In this document: positions 6,882-44,491 of the stretch, piece by piece
Layout: every line of letters begins with the position of its first letter
Numbering within the stretch: position 1 is the stretch's first letter
Origin: a virus
Strand: one strand, 5' to 3'
IMG/VR virus record: IMGVR_UViG_3300044960_000077
Location: 1-44,491 of that record
Length of the DNA: 44,491 nucleotides
Program-made: the position numbers and the translations under genes
Notes under the pieces: generated by a model
Database searches by the model: none
Told to the model about the DNA's origin: nothing
What the model saw: only the letters and a program-made list of their open reading frames with translations

Positions 6882-6910
6882 TTGCTTTTTATGGGTTTAG
6901 TTTGTATAAT
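6882..6910 (+). promoter_or_regulatory. Sigma-70-like promoter for the HNH/portal operon
   Basis: TTGCTT (6882-6887), a 17-base spacer and a consensus TATAAT (6905-6910) are visible. The ATG of the HNH gene lies 6 bases after the -10 box, where transcription would start, and no ribosome site is present, so the mRNA is predicted to be leaderless. Confidence 0.65.
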
Positions 6911-6916
6911 CTTCTT

Positions 6917-7405
6917 ATGAAAAAATTAGAGCTACAACTAAAAGGGAAAATCTACGAAGTTTTACTTGATGATGAGGATTGGGAACGCATACAACCTTTT
7001 CGATGGTATATCGCAAAAAGCCCTTTGGAATATACACCTTATGTTGTCGCAACAATTAATGGCAAAAGGACTTTAATGCACCGTTTTATACTCAATGCAC
7101 CACCAGAATTAGTTACAGACCATATTGATATGAATGGATTAAACAATCAGAAAAGCAACTTACGATTAATAACACGGCAACAAAATAATATGGGCAAACG
7201 CAAACAGCGAAGTGGCAAATCCTCGAAATTTAAATGCGTTAGTTGGAATCCAAAACGCCAACGGTGGCTTGTTCAAACAAAAGTCAATGGGAAAACGCGA
7301 TATATCGGACTATTTGTTGACGAGATAGACGCGGCAAAAGCCTATGATAAATTTGCCATAAAAACATATGGAGAATTTGCAAGATTGAATTTTCCAATTA
7401 CCTAA
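6917..7405 (+). CDS. AP2/HNH homing endonuclease
   Basis: The product has an N-terminal hydrophobic-strand region (LDDEDWERIQPFRWY). An HNH core follows: His in LMHRFIL, DH in TDHIDMNGLNN and the NLR signature. A C-terminal AP2-like DNA-binding domain (FKCVSWNPKRQRWLVQ ... YIGLFVDEIDAAKAYD) completes it. This is the standard free-standing HNH layout in phages. The ATG at 6917 is preferred over an upstream TTG because it sits at the predicted transcription start. The gene lies exactly at the divergence between the capsid and portal operons. It is a paralogue of the gene at 27971. Confidence 0.85.
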   Translation: MKKLELQLKGKIYEVLLDDEDWERIQPFRWYIAKSPLEYTPYVVATINGKRTLMHRFILNAPPELVTDHIDMNGLNNQKSNLRLITRQQNNMGKRKQRSGKSSKFKCVSWNPKRQRWLVQTKVNGKTRYIGLFVDEIDAAKAYDKFAIKTYGEFARLNFPIT

Positions 7406-26040: not shown

Positions 26041-26165
26041 AGGGATAATTGTAATTAAAGAAATACATATAAATCAAGTATTAATAATAATAATAAATAT
26101 TATCTATAATAAATATTATCTCTCTTCTATTTGACATTATACCTTTATTCCTTTATACTATTATC
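26041..26165. promoter_or_regulatory. Divergent control region between the HTH and RHH genes
   Basis: Minus promoter: TTGATT (26077-26072), 18 bases, TACAAT (26053-26048), then the HTH ATG 7 bases on. Plus promoter: TTGACA (26131-26136), 17 bases, TATACT (26154-26159), then the RHH ATG 6 bases on. Between them lie two tandem 15/16-base repeats, TAATAAATATTATCT (26091 and 26107), each with an AT palindrome, placed like operators just upstream of the plus -35 box. Confidence 0.6.
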
Positions 26166-26339
26166 ATGAGAAAACCATATAAATTTGAGAATAAGGATAA
26201 TATAAGCAAGGTAAGTATTAGATTGCCGAGAGAGATAAAAGCCAAACTGGATAGGATTGCATTCGAGAAAAAGCTATCACTTAATAACGTGATTATTCAA
26301 GCAATTAAGCATGCTTTAAAGAATTTTTCCGAAAAATAA
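26166..26339 (+). CDS. Ribbon-helix-helix regulator
   Basis: The 57-residue protein has the Arc/CopG layout: a basic N-terminal arm, the KVSIRLPREIKAKLDRIA strand-helix and SLNNVIIQAIKHALKNF second helix. It should dimerise and bind palindromic operators by its beta ribbon. It is preceded by a strong promoter whose predicted start site is the ATG itself. Targets may be the repeats at 26091-26122 and the palindrome at 26356. Confidence 0.8.
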   Translation: MRKPYKFENKDNISKVSIRLPREIKAKLDRIAFEKKLSLNNVIIQAIKHALKNFSEK

Positions 26340-26377
26340 AATTACCTCTTGACATTATAATATTATAGTGCTATATT
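26337..26377 (+). promoter_or_regulatory. Promoter with internal perfect palindrome, upstream of the small-gene operon
   Basis: TTGACA (26349-26354), 17 bases, TATATT (26372-26377). The spacer holds the perfect 12-base palindrome TATAATATTATA (26356-26367), an apparent operator. The 18 bases ending in the -35 box (26337-26354) are identical to those of the RHH promoter at 36759-36776 on the other strand. The predicted start near 26384 puts the structured element at 26402 inside the leader. Confidence 0.65.
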
Positions 26378-26401: not shown

Positions 26402-26448
26402 CTCCGCCGTAGCTTCGGCTAAATCCACCGGCGGGGGTTAAAGGGAGG
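26402..26448 (+). ncRNA. Structured 5' element, copy A
   Basis: An 8-bp stem (26402-26409 with 26429-26436) stacks directly on a 4-bp stem TAGC/GCTA closed by a TTCG tetraloop. Seven unpaired bases AATCCAC lie on the 3' side. The stem is followed by the ribosome site GGGAGG (26443-26448) of the gene at 26457. Two further copies precede the next two genes. Confidence 0.7.
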
Positions 26449-26456
26449 TAGTAAAA

Positions 26457-26903
26457 ATGAAAGTTCAACTGAAATACGACCGAAACCACGTGGAGGTGTC
26501 CGACTCGATTTACCTAGTCTCTTCCGGGTCAGACTTTTTTGACCCGAAGGAGAAATTTGAGGGTATTGAGTTCTTTCGAGTAATCTCAGCTCCCACCCTC
26601 GACGAAATTAGGGAGCGTACCGACGGTGCACATTTTGAAATCGAGGCGGAGGATGCACCTACCCCAATAGCTGGGGAGGTGCGGTCTCGTACCTCGCACA
26701 GCGGCCCCCACCACTGGGCTGATACCTATTTCCATTTCCATACCCCCATCACAGAGCCAATGCTGGTTCGTGTTCACCGTTCTGGTACGGCCCCGTATGG
26801 CCGGACCGGCGGCCAGCCGGGCTATGAGCACCGAGACGTTTCTCGGTGCGTACAATTTCTGATTTATCCCGCCTCTCCTTCTCAATCTTCTGATTCTGCA
26901 TAA
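26457..26903 (+). CDS. Hypothetical early protein
   Basis: The 148-residue product is beta-rich and GC-richer than the flanking AT-rich control region, with a His-rich segment (HSGPHHWADTYFHFHTP). It is the first gene of a plus-strand operon of four small genes. No family is recognised. Confidence 0.65.
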   Translation: MKVQLKYDRNHVEVSDSIYLVSSGSDFFDPKEKFEGIEFFRVISAPTLDEIRERTDGAHFEIEAEDAPTPIAGEVRSRTSHSGPHHWADTYFHFHTPITEPMLVRVHRSGTAPYGRTGGQPGYEHRDVSRCVQFLIYPASPSQSSDSA

Positions 26904-26915
26904 TTGCTACTATAT

Positions 26916-26962
26916 CCCCCGTCGGAGCCGTCAGGCTAATCCAACCGGCGGGGGCTGGGAGG
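26916..26962 (+). ncRNA. Structured 5' element, copy B
   Basis: A 10-bp stem (26916-26925 with 26945-26954, one G-T pair) stacks on AGCC/GGCT with loop GTCA, followed by AATCCAA. GGGAGG (26957-26962) precedes the gene at 26968. Both stems differ in sequence from copies A and C but keep pairing, which is covariation. Confidence 0.7.
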
Positions 26963-26967
26963 TAATT

Positions 26968-27165
26968 ATGAATAACTATATCGAGAGGCTAAATGGGTCA
27001 TTAGATATCTTTCGGGCAGAGGACATTGAGGCGATTGGGCAAGGGAGGTGCCCGAACTGTGGGATTGCAATGGAGGAGAATCCACACCCATATGGATTTG
27101 AATTGGAATGCTTGACGTGTGGGTTTGTGATCTCCTCTAATCTGGTGAGCGAACTTCTTGGATAG
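26968..27165 (+). CDS. Zinc-ribbon microprotein
   Basis: The 65-residue product has a helical N-terminus, then CPNC (C28/C31) and CLTC (C49/C52), a zinc ribbon resembling those of small phage and transcription-related proteins. Translation starts just after structured element B. Role unknown. Confidence 0.7.
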   Translation: MNNYIERLNGSLDIFRAEDIEAIGQGRCPNCGIAMEENPHPYGFELECLTCGFVISSNLVSELLG

Positions 27166-27207
27166 AATCCTAGTCCGTCGAAATGGCTCTCTAACAGCTA
27201 AACAAAT

Positions 27208-27256
27208 CCCCCGCCGTAGCTTCGGCTAAATCCACCCGGCGGGGGTTAAAGGGAGG
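27208..27256 (+). ncRNA. Structured 5' element, copy C
   Basis: A 9-bp GC stem (27208-27216 with 27237-27245) stacks on TAGC/GCTA with a TTCG loop and an 8-base AATCCACC strand, then GGGAGG (27251-27256). It is nearly identical to copy A and lies 5 bases before the ATG at 27261. Confidence 0.7.
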
Positions 27257-27260
27257 AACG

Positions 27261-27518
27261 ATGGATAAATATTTTCTTACAATTGCAAATCTATGTTGCT
27301 TTTCTCGTAAGGTGACACCTAAAAAGAAAGCATTGGCACGTCTGGCCGTTCGATTGAATACGCCAATCGACAATCAAGGCGGCGAAGGATTTATTCTTCC
27401 ATTCATACCAATTGCCATTTATCCAAATCAAATTGAATATTTGCCACATACTATTAAAGAAATCAACGCAATGGCCAGTCTTAACACTTACAAGCCCCTC
27501 CCCGGAAACGCAAGCTAA
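27261..27518 (+). CDS. Hypothetical early protein
   Basis: The 85-residue product has a basic central helix (KVTPKKKALARLAVRLN) and a hydrophobic IPIAIYPNQIEYLP segment. It follows structured element C. A short CCCCGG/CCGGGG hairpin (27500-27525) with GCTAAACC inside covers its stop codon and may be a degenerate fourth copy of the element. Confidence 0.6.
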   Translation: MDKYFLTIANLCCFSRKVTPKKKALARLAVRLNTPIDNQGGEGFILPFIPIAIYPNQIEYLPHTIKEINAMASLNTYKPLPGNAS

Positions 27519-27584
27519 ACCGGGGCGCATAGATAATAAGCAATTAAGTTTGTTTGACAAATAAAAACATAGGAGGGAAAAACA

Positions 27585-27845
27585 ATGAATAAGCACCAAG
27601 GGAGTAAAATGAGTTATATAAGACATCTTGAATTTATGAGTAACGCACTCGATACAAACCCAAACACAGGAGAAACCAAACCCCAAACGATTGTAGACGT
27701 TTATATGTATGATACAGAACTAAAGATATGGGGCTGGGGCTGGTTAGATTCACTGAAGTATGGAGAAGTATCATTTAACCAGGCCGAACAAATAATCACT
27801 AATGTTCTTGAATCCGATGGATTCAAATTAATTTGGACAGACTAG
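27585..27845 (+). CDS. Hypothetical early protein
   Basis: The 86-residue acidic product has a Trp-rich centre (KIWGWGWLDSL). AGGAGGG precedes the ATG. It is the last gene of the small operon; family not recognised. Confidence 0.6.
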   Translation: MNKHQGSKMSYIRHLEFMSNALDTNPNTGETKPQTIVDVYMYDTELKIWGWGWLDSLKYGEVSFNQAEQIITNVLESDGFKLIWTD

Positions 27846-27970: not shown

Positions 27971-28498
27971 ATGACTAAAGAAATTGAACTGGATAAAGGA
28001 TCAATAGCCCTCGTGGATGATTCAGACTATGAGTGGCTTAATCAATGGAAATGGCATGCTCAAAAAGATCGCAATACTCATTATGCCGCTAGAGGGCAGA
28101 GACATTATTTAGGAAAAGCCAAGAAAACAATTTTTATGCACGAATTACTGTTAGATTGCCCTAAAGGAATGCTTCGAGACCATAAAGATAATAATGGCTT
28201 AAATAATCAACGAAAGAATTTACGAGTAGTTACACCCTCTCAGAATGCTTGTAATTCAACGATAAGGCGATGGGGCAAAACATCTCGTTTTAAGGGTGTA
28301 TATTTTCACAAAAATTCTAGCCGTTGGATGGCTCGGTTAGGCTATCAAGGTAAAATTTATTTCATAGGCAATTTTTACGATGAAATTCAAGCAGCTTTGG
28401 CTTATGATAAAAAAGCCCAAGAGATATTTGGAGACTATGCCAGACTTAATCAAGAAATCTATCCAGAATTATTCAGGATGCCTAGGACAGACAAATAA
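27971..28498 (+). CDS. AP2/HNH homing endonuclease
   Basis: The 175-residue protein has the same order as the gene at 6917: VDDSDYEWLNQWKWHA, an HNH core (FMHELLL; RDHKDNNGLNNQ; NLRVVT) and an AP2-like domain (FKGVYFHKNSSRWMA ... FIGNFYDEIQAALAYD). It is expected to nick or cut a DNA site and promote its own spread. It sits alone between the plus-strand early operon and the convergent replication gene. Confidence 0.85.
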   Translation: MTKEIELDKGSIALVDDSDYEWLNQWKWHAQKDRNTHYAARGQRHYLGKAKKTIFMHELLLDCPKGMLRDHKDNNGLNNQRKNLRVVTPSQNACNSTIRRWGKTSRFKGVYFHKNSSRWMARLGYQGKIYFIGNFYDEIQAALAYDKKAQEIFGDYARLNQEIYPELFRMPRTDK

Positions 28499-29887: not shown

Positions 29888-30073
29888 TTAACTATCATTC
29901 GGTAAAGGTTCATGCTCAGGTTCTTCGTGGTAAAAAACTTCTCCTAAATGTCGCATATCTACACTCTGCCCGCATATATTACAAGTATAAAAATGCTCAG
30001 ATTCCTCTTGAACCTCTTTGTCTATTCTAACCCCTACAATTCCATCAAATATGTTGCCTGTCTTGCGATTCAT
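29888..30073 (-). CDS. Zinc-finger microprotein
   Basis: The 61-residue product has CNIC at about residues 31-34 followed by His residues (MRHLGEVFYHEEPEH), a CCHH-type zinc-binding set. GGGAGGG precedes the ATG. The structured intergenic segment at 30102-30197 lies just upstream. Confidence 0.55.
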   Translation of the reverse strand: MNRKTGNIFDGIVGVRIDKEVQEESEHFYTCNICGQSVDMRHLGEVFYHEEPEHEPLPNDS

Positions 30074-30101
30074 TTGCCCTCCCGATTAGACATTTTTATT
30101 G

Positions 30102-30197
30102 GGGGCCGGATACACTGTGGGAATATCCGGCCCCTACCCTGCTACTACTGAGCTAAATATCAGCCCCACCGTATTCTTATTAACCCCGGTGGCGGGC
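30102..30197 (-). ncRNA. Two-hairpin structured intergenic segment
   Basis: On the minus strand a 9-bp stem with a two-base bulge (30163-30171 with 30187-30197) comes first, then a perfect 11-bp stem GGGGCCGGATA/TATCCGGCCCC (30102-30112 with 30124-30134, loop 11). No T-run follows either stem in the transcribed direction, so they are not ordinary terminators. A tRNA D-arm-like TAGCTCAGTAG lies between them, but no T-arm is present. Confidence 0.5.
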
Positions 30198-32671: not shown

Positions 32672-32999
32672 TGGTTTCATCCTCCTTCTTTAGAAGTGCA
32701 TAACACCAAACCCATGAACTGCCATTGATATATAGTCGCGGATAATCCCAAATATTTTGAGGTTGCCCTACATATCTCACTTTATCTAAGGGAAGCCCCG
32801 GCATTTGTATTTCCCAACACTGGTTATCTTTCCATATTAAAAACGCATATCGCCCTTGACCGTAGTCATGTTCAGGTATGCGTACCCAATTTAATGCTTC
32901 TATTTCACAATCCGCAATATAATGTCTGATATTATCTATGGCGTTGGCTTCTGTTGTATCGTCAACTGGGCCACTTCCTGGATTAATTATTACGCTCAT
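32655..32999 (-). CDS. Hypothetical early protein
   Basis: The 114-residue product contains ANAIDNIRHYIADCEIE and Trp-rich beta segments (FLIWKDNQCWEIQMPGLPLD), recognisable as an unnamed type found in phage early regions. GGAGG precedes its ATG. Confidence 0.55.
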   Translation of the reverse strand: MSVIINPGSGPVDDTTEANAIDNIRHYIADCEIEALNWVRIPEHDYGQGRYAFLIWKDNQCWEIQMPGLPLDKVRYVGQPQNIWDYPRLYINGSSWVWCYALLKKEDETNERNK

Positions 33000-33744
33000 T
33001 GCTGTCCTCCTTCATTATTTCTGCTACAGCTTTATCGGCTAATAAATCAAAATTTATTTTCTCTTCGATGCCTGCTACCCATGCTGCTCTTGCTGCCCAT
33101 ACTGCTGCCTCCGCTGCCCTTGCTGCCACTGCGGCTGCCTTTGCTGACCATGCTGCCTCCGCTGCCTCTACTGTTGCCTTTGCTGCCACTGCGGCTGACC
33201 ATGCTGCCTCTGCTGCCCTTGCTGTTCTTGCTAGCTCTGCTGCTGACCATGCTGCCTTTGCTGCCTTTGCTGCCTCTGTTGCTCTTGCTGCCTCTGCTGT
33301 AGGATTTCTAAGGTATGCTTTTGCAGCTTCGATTGCTTCTCTTACTCTTTTATCTGTGGAGTATGTGTCCTCAAAATAATGCAATACGACTTCAGCACAG
33401 AGAATGGCAAAAAGTACTTGCACTTGCCTCCGCTTCTTTTCATTCTTGTACCATTCCGGTATTGGGACTAACTTAGTCGTTGTTAGGGAAAAACAACCTA
33501 CTTTACTCCAATCCTTTACTGCAATATCCCCTTGGGCTTCCCAAATAACAGGGTTTTTTATATCTGCCTGAAGAGGGTTGATTAGAAGAGCTAAATTGAT
33601 ATTGGTGTAGGCGTGCAATACATCCTCAGAGCATAATAGAGGATTCCTTTTCGCCTTCTTGGTGTGGGTTACATTTTCACCCCAAGTCGTACCGTTATAA
33701 GTTCGATTCTTGGCAGTGGTAAGCTTATATAGAATCTGCATCAT
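32983..33744 (-). CDS. Ala-rich repeat protein, immunity-like C-terminus
   Basis: The 253-residue product has an N-terminal domain (about 1-115) with LCSEDVLHAYTNINLALLINP and GDIAVKDWSKVGCFSLT, typical of unnamed phage proteins. A helical region of imperfect Ala/Trp repeats follows (AAWSAAELARTARAAEAAW, about 145-230), ending DLLADKAVAEIM. Such Ala-Trp repeat ends occur in phage proteins annotated as putative immunity-like. The repeats are encoded by GCA/GCN tracts and may vary in number. Confidence 0.6.
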   Translation of the reverse strand: MMQILYKLTTAKNRTYNGTTWGENVTHTKKAKRNPLLCSEDVLHAYTNINLALLINPLQADIKNPVIWEAQGDIAVKDWSKVGCFSLTTTKLVPIPEWYKNEKKRRQVQVLFAILCAEVVLHYFEDTYSTDKRVREAIEAAKAYLRNPTAEAARATEAAKAAKAAWSAAELARTARAAEAAWSAAVAAKATVEAAEAAWSAKAAAVAARAAEAAVWAARAAWVAGIEEKINFDLLADKAVAEIMKEDSNERNN

Positions 33745-36527: not shown

Positions 36528-36725
36528 CTAGCTATTTTCTTGCTCATATTCTTTCTGAAGTATCTGCCTAACGATTACCGACTTTGTGCATAATTCTTGT
36601 TCGGCTTTCTTCATTATCCATTTTGATAAGTCAATAGGAATGTTAATCGATAAAGTTACATAAGTGTTGCCTCTTGATCTAGATTTGTAACGGTTTTTTC
36701 TAGGTATTGCATTTTGTGCTTTCAT
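36528..36725 (-). CDS. Ribbon-helix-helix regulator
   Basis: ATG 36725 is chosen because a promoter covers the region ahead of it; a longer frame would start inside the -35 box. The 65-residue product has a basic arm (KNRYKSRSRGNTY), the ribbon VTLSINIPIDLSKWIMKKAEQE and second helix TKSVIVRQILQKEY: an Arc/CopG-type DNA-binding dimer. A near-perfect palindrome in its own promoter suggests autoregulation. It heads the minus-strand early operon. Confidence 0.75.
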   Translation of the reverse strand: MKAQNAIPRKNRYKSRSRGNTYVTLSINIPIDLSKWIMKKAEQELCTKSVIVRQILQKEYEQENS

Positions 36726-40999: not shown

Positions 41000-43900
41000 C
41001 TATGGTATCGCACATCCATTTACGCCAACATTGAGCCTCTTGTGAACATTGATACAAGCTTGCGTGGTTTTGGTAGCCCCATCTGGATCGTTTGTAACTA
41101 GCCCCTGAGCTGAAAAATTAACTGCTGCTCCACAGGGAAACTCTCCAGTGGCTTGATTCCACAGCTTAGTGTTTGTCAGATTACCATTCTCATCATAGCG
41201 ATATATTATATTTGCACCTATATCATTATTTCCCCTACCCACTCCCTTTAATTCATTACCAGTTGGAATATACACCACACATCCTTGTCCAGCCGCCCTA
41301 GTGTTGTACATACTCGATGCTATATCCACACCGTCAGGGTTAGTGGTTGTAGCATTAGTTTTTATATCCAAACCTGGAGCCACATAGGCAGTTCCACCAT
41401 TACCGCTAGCGTTGGGATAGTCTACTTCCCTAGAGCTAAATTGGGTATGATGATCTATAAAGTACCCTCTTTGCCCATTTCCAAGTGATAAAGTATTCAC
41501 CCAAATCAATTGAGGATTAATTGTCCAAGACGCTGAAGAGTTTTGGCTGGAATATTTGTTACTGGCCTGGAACCCATCATTGGTATTTGCTATACTAGAT
41601 ATGTTCCTGTTTGAAATAACGCTTTCTACGCTTCGCTCCATCCAACCGTTAGAACGGTTTTTAAAAGCTACATTGTTTTCTCCTATAAAATCAATTGTAG
41701 TTATTGAAGAAACGCAACAGTGATGCTGTATAGCAAAACCATTCTGATTGTTCAGTGCTATGTTCCCCAAAATCTTTGCTCTCTTTGCCCACACACCGAA
41801 TAGTTCTGAGGTCTCAACTATATTATTAACAGCCACACAATCATCACAATCATATACTGCAATTCCCTCATCTCCCCCATTGCGATGTGTGGCAAAACCC
41901 CCAGCCAAGTCATCTTGAGTATCTCTGGAGTTTGCATAATTCCTAATCCACCTAACAAAAGATCCGTGACTACTAAAGCCATGGCGATGATAATGGTAGG
42001 CCTCATTCTCAATATAAGTAAGGTTATTTCCATCTATACTAAACACGTGAGCATTATTTTGTCTGTTAGGATATGCACCAAGATTGCGGTAAAAAACTAT
42101 ATTAGAAGAATTAATCGTGGCAAAAACGTGACCGTTAGCATTATTAGTGTTTGAAGAATTAGTCGCATTAATTGCAGCAATCCCCTCAATTTTATACCAA
42201 CTACAATTTCTAATTGATACAGGAGCGGCTAAGCCATCGGAAATTATTAAAGCTCCTCTTTCAGTTTCCATTTTGACTGTAATAGGATTTTGCTGTGTTC
42301 CACGAGGCCAGCCAGCATTACAGTCTATGCTAATATTTTGTCCATTAGCCTTCGTATAATTCCCTAAACCAGTTGCCATTATGATAGTTTTCCCAGATGC
42401 TGTTAGTGATTTAATCCTACTCCAGGTAGCGCAGGCGTTTGCTCTTGAAGAGCAATCGTTTGAATCACTACCACCTTGTCCAGTAGGTTTTATCCAAAGT
42501 TCAGATGATGCCTGAGTTTGAAAACTAGCCTCAGAAGTTTCTCCTACGTTTAAATTAGGGCTTTTATCCCTGGCTTTAATCTTATAGAAATAGGTGGTGT
42601 TAGGATTTAGGGCTGAAAAAGTTACCTGGACTTTCTCCTGTCCACTGGCATTAAAAGAAGGAGATTCTGTGGTTGTACTGTTTAAAGAGCCGCTTGAGGT
42701 TCCATATATCCCCCAGGCATCAGAAACCTCACTTACATTGCAAGTCACCGTGCAACTGGTTTGAGCACAGCTTGCAGAACAGCTTGATATAGTCGGAGCG
42801 GTAGTATCACCAGGACTTGCTAATATAGTTGTACTGGAGAATTTCACTATAGATGCTTTAGATAAATCATTAATTTCGGTGACTGAGCCTTTATGAATCT
42901 TCCTAAAAAATCCGCTCGTGTCTTTATCATTTACTCGTGCATTAAAAAGCCCTAACTCATTTGCAGTTAGAGATGGAAGCGTTACCCTAGCCTCTATACA
43001 CTTACCTCCGGTAATATCTGTTGAAGCGATAGACTCAATAAAGCTATTTGAATTGGTATACACATTTGATGGATAGTTCCCATCTCTATATTTTCCAGAG
43101 GTAGTCACTATCTCTTTAATAGTGTCTGTATGCTTGGTAACAGATAGCCCTTTAGAGACTATGAATTCGCCTCCATCCTGAGAAAGACAAGAACTATCAT
43201 CATTTGCCGTACACGTATCAATATCTTCACTATCCGTCTGCTTAATTCGTACAAATAAGCAGTCTCCAAAGCCGTTGCAGGCTGCTCTGTTATTAGCCCA
43301 TATAAGCGTTATTGACTCATTGCTATTATTCCAATTAGCATCTACACCACCAGAAAGGGGTATGCTCGTCCCACCATCCCAGGCTGCATCTGTACAATTT
43401 GTACCTATAGTTGGCGCTGTCTCCGTTCCTAGTTCCAGAATCTCTATATCCGCACTTGTACCTCCCCCCTCTCCTATAGCCTCTAAATCGTCAGAGGGGC
43501 TGTTTACAAGCACCACCTTAGCAATTCTTACATTCTCTGGCATAATCCAAAGGCACTGCTGTCCATTCAGCGAAAATTGTTTATCAGCAGTATTTACGGT
43601 TCTACTTTTGTAGTTTGCATAAGTATCAAAGGCGTTGAACCTCTGATAAACCCACGCACCAGAGGTATCCGCTTTCATAGCATACCTACCATCCAAATGG
43701 CGGAATGGCTCGGTATCTACCTTGATATAAATAAGAGGATCACCGGCAATAGACTTGAGTCTGAGTCCACCGTTATAAGTAGCGTTAGTAAAATTCCCAC
43801 AAAAGGCTATTTGCCCATCTAGAGGATTCAACCCAATCGGATTTTCTATGTATGCTATTCCAGCCTCTGTACCAGTTGTGGTATTAGAGAGCCTAACTCC

Positions 43901-44113: not shown

Positions 44114-44491
44114 ATAGTAAAATCCTCCGATGCTGGCGTTGTATCTTTACCTATAGCGAACCAGGTCATAGTAACTCCATTCTCATTACAGCCTGTACTA
44201 GTGTTAACGGTCATGCTTCCAGAGCTTAAGGCAGTCACACAGGTAGTGTTTTGACTACCATTATCAACATAGGAGTTACTCCCAGTTTGGCTTCTGAACC
44301 TAAATGCCCATCTACTAGTAGTAGAATTGCCTTTGATGGCTACAAAAATTGGGTCAATATCTCCCAGGTTAATATTTTGTGAGCTACCGGTACCAGAAAA
44401 AGTACCTACTTTGCATAGATACCCAGCACCGCATTTGAAGGCGAAATATAAATAACTCTTATCAGCTTGCTGAACCGCAGTGTTTGTACCG
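44101..44491 (-). CDS. C-terminal part of the secreted protein that begins at 828
   Basis: The frame enters from the window end and stops at 44101-44103, overlapping the start of the beta-helix lipoprotein gene. It is in phase with the frame 1-828 once the 142-base overlap is merged, and it encodes the last 82 unique residues ending DFTIWVQ. Confidence 0.7.
   Translation of the reverse strand, partial: GTNTAVQQADKSYLYFAFKCGAGYLCKVGTFSGTGSSQNINLGDIDPIFVAIKGNSTTSRWAFRFRSQTGSNSYVDNGSQNTTCVTALSSGSMTVNTSTGCNENGVTMTWFAIGKDTTPASEDFTIWVQ
44350..44491. repeat. Terminal overlap identical to the window start
   Basis: These 142 bases match 1-142 except at two positions (12, T versus C; 16, A versus C), with the last 126 identical. 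It marks a circular map or redundant ends. Confidence 0.9.

Follow-up and report, generated by a model that had tools for sequence, protein, structure and literature searches.

A bulged hairpin repeated at the Shine-Dalgarno sequences of three consecutive phage genes: a candidate start-associated RNA leader module

The window, i.e., the whole stretch of DNA that was analyzed, is the 44,491-base virus record IMGVR_UViG_3300044960_000077. A terminal direct repeat of 142 bases (1-142 and 44350-44491, 99% identical) suggests that the genome is complete. A terminase and a portal-like protein are encoded in the window, and the closest terminase relatives found showed 22-30% identity. On the minus strand, an ORF at 32983-33744 contains a long Ala-rich stretch made of 9-12 base repeats. 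The element described here occupies the region 26402-27256 of the plus strand.

The region contains three predicted genes on the plus strand, ORF1 (26457-26903, 148 aa), ORF2 (26968-27165, 65 aa), and ORF3 (27261-27518, 85 aa). The next gene on the same strand, predicted ORF4 (27585-27845, 86 aa), has an ordinary AGGAGG site and lacks the element. No protein homologues were found for any of ORF1-ORF4, and ORF1 and ORF3 also belonged to no recognised family. Structure models of these two, built from single sequences, reached pLDDT values of 46 and 42, respectively, and were not usable. ORF2 carries two CxxC pairs and is a probable zinc ribbon; its best Pfam match was Zn_Ribbon_TF (E = 0.009), under the family cut-off. 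Codon usage was atypical in ORF1-ORF3, each of which outscored only 3 of 37 other small phage genes, whereas ORF4 was typical, with 34 of the 37 small genes scoring lower. For genes this short, the atypical usage of ORF1-ORF3 is suggestive of imported genes that brought their own leader.

A sigma-70-type promoter (TTGACA-N17-TATATT, 11 of 12 consensus bases) is predicted at 26349-26377 on the plus strand from a consensus match only, in a region where 11 such sites were found compared with 9.1 expected in shuffles. The predicted promoter ends 24 nt upstream of the first hairpin copy, which would put the start of the first cistron's leader near that hairpin, with the predicted transcript start approximately 15-20 nt on its 5' side.

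Similar TTGACA promoters were observed at 26131-26159 (plus strand) and 36776-36747 (minus strand). A 30-nt block (83%), which includes TAAAATTACCTCTTGACA, is common to 26337-26366 and 36776-36747. A ribbon-helix-helix gene (26166-26339) starts almost leaderless behind the promoter at 26131-26159, and a ribbon-helix-helix look-alike ORF, at 36723 on the minus strand, lies behind the promoter at 36776-36747. The similar promoters and look-alike genes possibly reflect a shared operator and a duplicated regulator. Two further ORFs resembling each other, at 6902-7405 and 27971-28498, have the sequence appearance of HNH/AP2-type endonucleases, the latter being located directly downstream of the operon with the element.

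The initial annotation had placed copies of a structured element at 26402, 26916, and 27208, and all three were present there on the plus strand. Copy A (26402-26436) consists of a lower stem P1 of 8 bp, including one U-G pair, an upper stem P2 (UAGC/GCUA), a UUCG loop, and the bulge AAUCCAC, whose AATCCA strand occupies 26422-26427. Copy B (26916-26954) has a P1 of 10 bp, again with one U-G pair, P2 AGCC/GGCU, a GUCA loop, and the bulge AAUCCAA. Copy C (27208-27245) has a P1 of 9 bp, P2 UAGC/GCUA, a UUCG loop, and the bulge AAUCCACC. The stem-loops are thus 35-39 nt long. In all copies, P1 and P2 abut without a gap on the 5' side, and on the 3' side they are separated by a bulge of 7-8 nt, which opens with AAUCCA directly 3' of P2 and continues for one or two further nucleotides. 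The 3' strand of P1, CCGGCGGGGG, is also the same in all copies.

Each hairpin is followed by a GGGAGG Shine-Dalgarno sequence on the plus strand, located 6 nt past stem A (26443-26448, ORF1), 2 nt past stem B (26957-26962, ORF2), and 5 nt past stem C (27251-27256, ORF3). The gap between GGGAGG and ATG was 8, 5, and 4 nt for copies A, B, and C, respectively, and the ATG lay 13-20 nt downstream of the hairpin in all three. The reported loops (TTCG, GTCA, and TTCG), the invariant AATCCA, and the GGGAGG after the stem were likewise seen in every copy. Similarity between the copies comprises the hairpin and the Shine-Dalgarno sequence and ends there, the ORFs behind being unrelated; in three of three copies, the repeated motif is tied to the translation start of an unrelated gene. 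An intrinsic terminator was considered and rejected, since no U tract is found at the element, the hairpins being followed by UUAAAGGGAGG or CUGGGAGG.

The specificity of the repeat was evaluated over the whole window. In an architecture scan of both strands, sites with an AATCCA bulge and a GC-rich stem were copies A, B, and C only; the same scan also gave two weak, unrelated sites. A covariance model trained on copies A and C alone, with B withheld, recovered copy B with 36.8 bits (E = 5.2e-8), while the next-best match in the window reached 13.2 bits. No credible further copy was found in the window by this model, the other phage genes lacking the element. A pattern covering all three copies had 0.00 expected occurrences in shuffled sequence. 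When compared with dinucleotide shuffles, the fold energies gave z values of -0.86, -2.2, and -0.99 for A, B, and C, respectively. The fold energies of A and C are thus unremarkable, and the evidence for the element is its repetition and common architecture, not raw stability.

A degenerate fourth copy had also been suggested at 27500-27525. This was not borne out: with filters off and E values up to 10 admitted, the model from A and C did not match these positions, whose fold z value was -0.49. The segment overlaps the end of ORF3 and lies approximately 60 nt from the next start. A very stable hairpin of unrelated sequence, GGGGCCGGATA...TATCCGGCCCC, was noted at 30073-30150 on the minus strand, approximately 20 nt upstream of the GGGAGG ribosome site of a 61-aa ORF.

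Sequence comparison of the copies showed that A and C differ by one substitution and three gap positions over approximately 53 columns, whereas 6 substitutions, 2 inserted bases, and 4 deleted bases separate C from B. Because A and C are near-identical, there are in effect only two sequence types, and the structural argument rests on one comparison. The changes from C to B cluster in the apical loop and in the spacer between the hairpin and the Shine-Dalgarno sequence, while P1, the bulge, and the Shine-Dalgarno sequence are retained.

The initial annotation held that copy B alters both stems with compensation. For the upper stem, three pairs were indeed altered on both sides in a model-fitted alignment anchored on AATCCA and P1, a result reached by 19 of 500 shuffles; variation in the lower stem, however, was limited to a C-G to U-G change and is one-sided. 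The best sequence alignment leaves AGC/GCU in place, common to all copies, and accounts for B by a T-to-G change, through which a P2 pair becomes a P1 pair, together with a C-G pair inserted under the loop, i.e., a shift of 1 nt. This shift in register leaves P2 of copy B at 4 bp with a tetraloop. The "compensatory" changes are accordingly ambiguous on sequence grounds, and copy B may simply be register-shifted.

Maintenance of the fold was also evaluated by simulation, using a test architecture that was itself derived from sequences A, B, and C. Among random mutants of C carrying as many changes as separate it from B, the architecture with AATCCA was kept in 0.055% and the architecture with any bulge in 0.49%, and 0.35% were as stable as B. 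When the positions of the changes were fixed and only the letters randomized, the architecture survived in 4-6% of draws. A fold maintained across the copies is likely, with moderate support from this one comparison, as values of about 0.05-0.5% in the free simulations stand against 4-6% with fixed positions.

The accessibility of the Shine-Dalgarno sequences differed among the cistrons. For the first, the opening cost was 4.3 kcal/mol compared with a median of 4.2 over 61 phage genes, and the site is not occluded. The cost was 9.4 kcal/mol for B (rank 6 of 61) and 11.3 kcal/mol for C (rank 2 of 61), the fold predicted for a longer leader partly covering the Shine-Dalgarno sequence and AUG. 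When compared with shuffled flanks, this occlusion was within chance (p = 0.24 and 0.10, respectively). In these models, the occlusion in B and C would suit a pure enhancer poorly, yet its extent is within chance. Around hairpins B and C, outer stems are predicted at 26899-26972 and 27173-27265, respectively; they would take in the Shine-Dalgarno sequence and AUG of ORF2 and ORF3, and their 5' strands lie at or just past the upstream gene's stop codon. Translational coupling via these outer stems was considered and set aside: the z values of -4.2 and -3.4 are largely due to the hairpin itself, and as the contribution of the flanks was not significant, the outer stems were not relied upon.

Relatives of the element were sought in several collections. 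In IMG/VR, three DNA patterns matched only sites without the P1/P2 architecture, and in 84,980 bacterial and archaeal genomes, one DNA pattern matched only sites without the stems; the best genome match, with a 7-bp stem, was not matched by the covariance model from A and C. In these patterns, AATCCA had to be preceded by GGCT or GSYW, and G-rich 3' strands were required in part; an element with different stems would escape them. Near-identical records were possibly omitted from the searches. The covariance model gave nothing credible on 80 terminase-related viral loci and 38 whole virus records. Comparison of the segment 25500-28700 with phage and plasmid DNA gave chance matches only. Rfam yielded nothing above the gathering threshold and nothing credible even at E values up to 10, apart from two sub-threshold chance matches, neither of which spanned a whole hairpin. 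No further homologue with covariation emerged from the collections searched, an outcome that the initial annotation had named as refuting its proposal and that counts in part against it. As far as these collections reach, the element is unique to the phage of record IMGVR_UViG_3300044960_000077.

The best reading of the sequence is that the hairpin module acts in cis on translation or mRNA stability. We give about an even chance to a start-associated RNA leader module, composed of the bulged stem-loop and the Shine-Dalgarno sequence and present in three paralogous copies, one before each of three successive accessory genes in one phage operon. Once transcribed, the hairpin would fold constitutively immediately 5' of the ribosome footprint, keep upstream sequence from pairing with the leader, protect the leader against nucleases, and act in cis to set how each cistron is initiated. 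Duplication inside the phage or in its donor would have multiplied either the leader by itself or whole leader-ORF units. A factor may in addition recognize the conserved bulge, a step with which the leader-module reading can dispense. This reading is supported by the three copies on the same strand, their equal placement relative to the Shine-Dalgarno sequence and ATG, the two-stem architecture with AAUCCA, and the consensus promoter before the first copy. It appears weakened in that homologues were not found elsewhere and the ORFs are predicted only.

The main rival, which we consider unlikely but worth weighing, is a translational operator, in which a phage or host RNA-binding protein would read the AAUCCA bulge and jointly repress or activate the three cistrons. 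The hairpin adjoins the Shine-Dalgarno sequence, and the sequence of the bulge and its place directly 3' of P2 are invariant despite the register shift in P2. However, the bulge is conserved no better than the P1 3' strand, and specific recognition is therefore not singled out; moreover, no candidate RNA-binding protein was found, and there were no homologues in which co-conservation could be followed. As a second and rather improbable rival, the repeat could act at the DNA level, as a recombination junction or as the edge of a cassette, allowing small genes to be shuffled into the locus, with the Shine-Dalgarno sequence as a passenger. Three unrelated orphan ORFs of atypical codon usage behind one short repeat would fit such a mobility repeat, as would the endonuclease-like neighbor gene at 27971-28498. 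Against it, the copies all have the same orientation, include the Shine-Dalgarno sequence at the start codon, and keep their stems; neither target duplications nor a terminal signature were seen, and no such repeat occurred in the other phages, plasmids, and genomes searched.

Bulged hairpins of approximately 12-14 paired bp between successive cistrons would also suit RNase III sites like those of T7, at which processing or stabilization would leave every cistron with a protected end. This reading is very unlikely, as copy A heads the first gene past the predicted promoter, with no upstream cistron to separate, and the helix is under about two turns. The initial annotation had also offered a shared operator, a riboswitch-like element, or a stabiliser. 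A structured element at three ribosome sites agrees with this proposal in general, whereas its riboswitch component found no backing from Rfam, a metabolic gene, or homologues. Although the small size of the hairpin and its conserved asymmetric bulge ahead of the Shine-Dalgarno sequence would suit one, a ligand-binding riboswitch is hardly credible given the lack of any credible Rfam match up to E = 10, the presence of three copies in one operon of orphan phage genes, and the lack of a second structure common to all three copies.

Among known systems, the closest comparison is with the SAS/ESAS of Cluster K mycobacteriophages (PMC3203893) and Cluster EF Microbacterium phages (PMC7302621), highly conserved motifs of unknown function at the ribosome-binding sites of several gene families per phage. 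The SAS is often accompanied by an inverted repeat or a second motif immediately upstream (PMC3203893, PMC7302621). In Cluster K, the ESAS is a pair of imperfect 17-bp repeats separated by a variable spacer, and the authors found little in favor of an mRNA hairpin (PMC3203893). In Cluster EG Microbacterium phages, 18-bp inverted repeats lie 14-22 bp upstream of starts (PMC7302621).

As with SAS/ESAS, several unrelated genes of one phage carry a conserved repeat at their ribosome sites or close by, but many sites occur there compared with three here, and the phages are unrelated. In contrast to the Cluster K ESAS, one asymmetric bulged hairpin with its pairing kept (P1 8-10 bp, P2 4 bp) is present, and the paired 17-bp inverted repeats of the ESAS, imperfect and variably spaced, are missing from the element. 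The 13-bp SAS consensus GGGATAGGAGCCC, sought with up to 2 deviations at several starts, was absent from the element. With up to 3 mismatches, it matched 11 times in the window compared with 12.1 by chance and was thus not enriched; the single match with 2 mismatches was at 42558 on the minus strand. The Cluster EG repeats are similar in being inverted repeats at a comparable distance from the start codon before several genes, but they form a symmetric palindrome, GATCAACCNNGGTTGATC, without a described bulge or fused Shine-Dalgarno sequence, and this palindrome had no match here with up to 3 mismatches. By analogy, the element would work like the SAS/ESAS kind; it is not a member, as the SAS and EG consensuses are absent and a hairpin is supported here.

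The MS2 coat hairpin and the T4 gp43 operator are phage translational operators, present as single sites with a known protein reader. Like them, the element has a small bulged or looped hairpin adjoining the Shine-Dalgarno sequence; its sequences are different, and it would be a candidate operator of three cistrons with no protein assigned to it. The RNase III sites of T7 are hairpins between consecutive small early genes; here, the helix is shorter, one copy heads the operon, and cleavage is only hypothetical.

Taken together, the element is real, an RNA-level role is modestly supported, and its mechanism is inferred. This assessment is more reserved than that of the initial annotation, because no homologue or independent covariation was found. 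A bolder reading, which must be regarded as improbable, takes the AAUCCA-bulge hairpin for the operator of a new phage RNA regulon, in which one trans-acting factor would control the translation of orphan accessory genes. If true, this would constitute a new class of start-associated phage element at the RNA level; if the repeat is merely a local duplication, it would have little significance.

Start-associated repeats are known from several actinobacteriophage clusters, where their function is unexplained and, in Cluster K, RNA structure has little support. A comparable arrangement is now observed in an unrelated phage, where the repeat has a definite and apparently maintained fold. The three-gene operon may thus provide a compact system for probing the role of start-associated elements.
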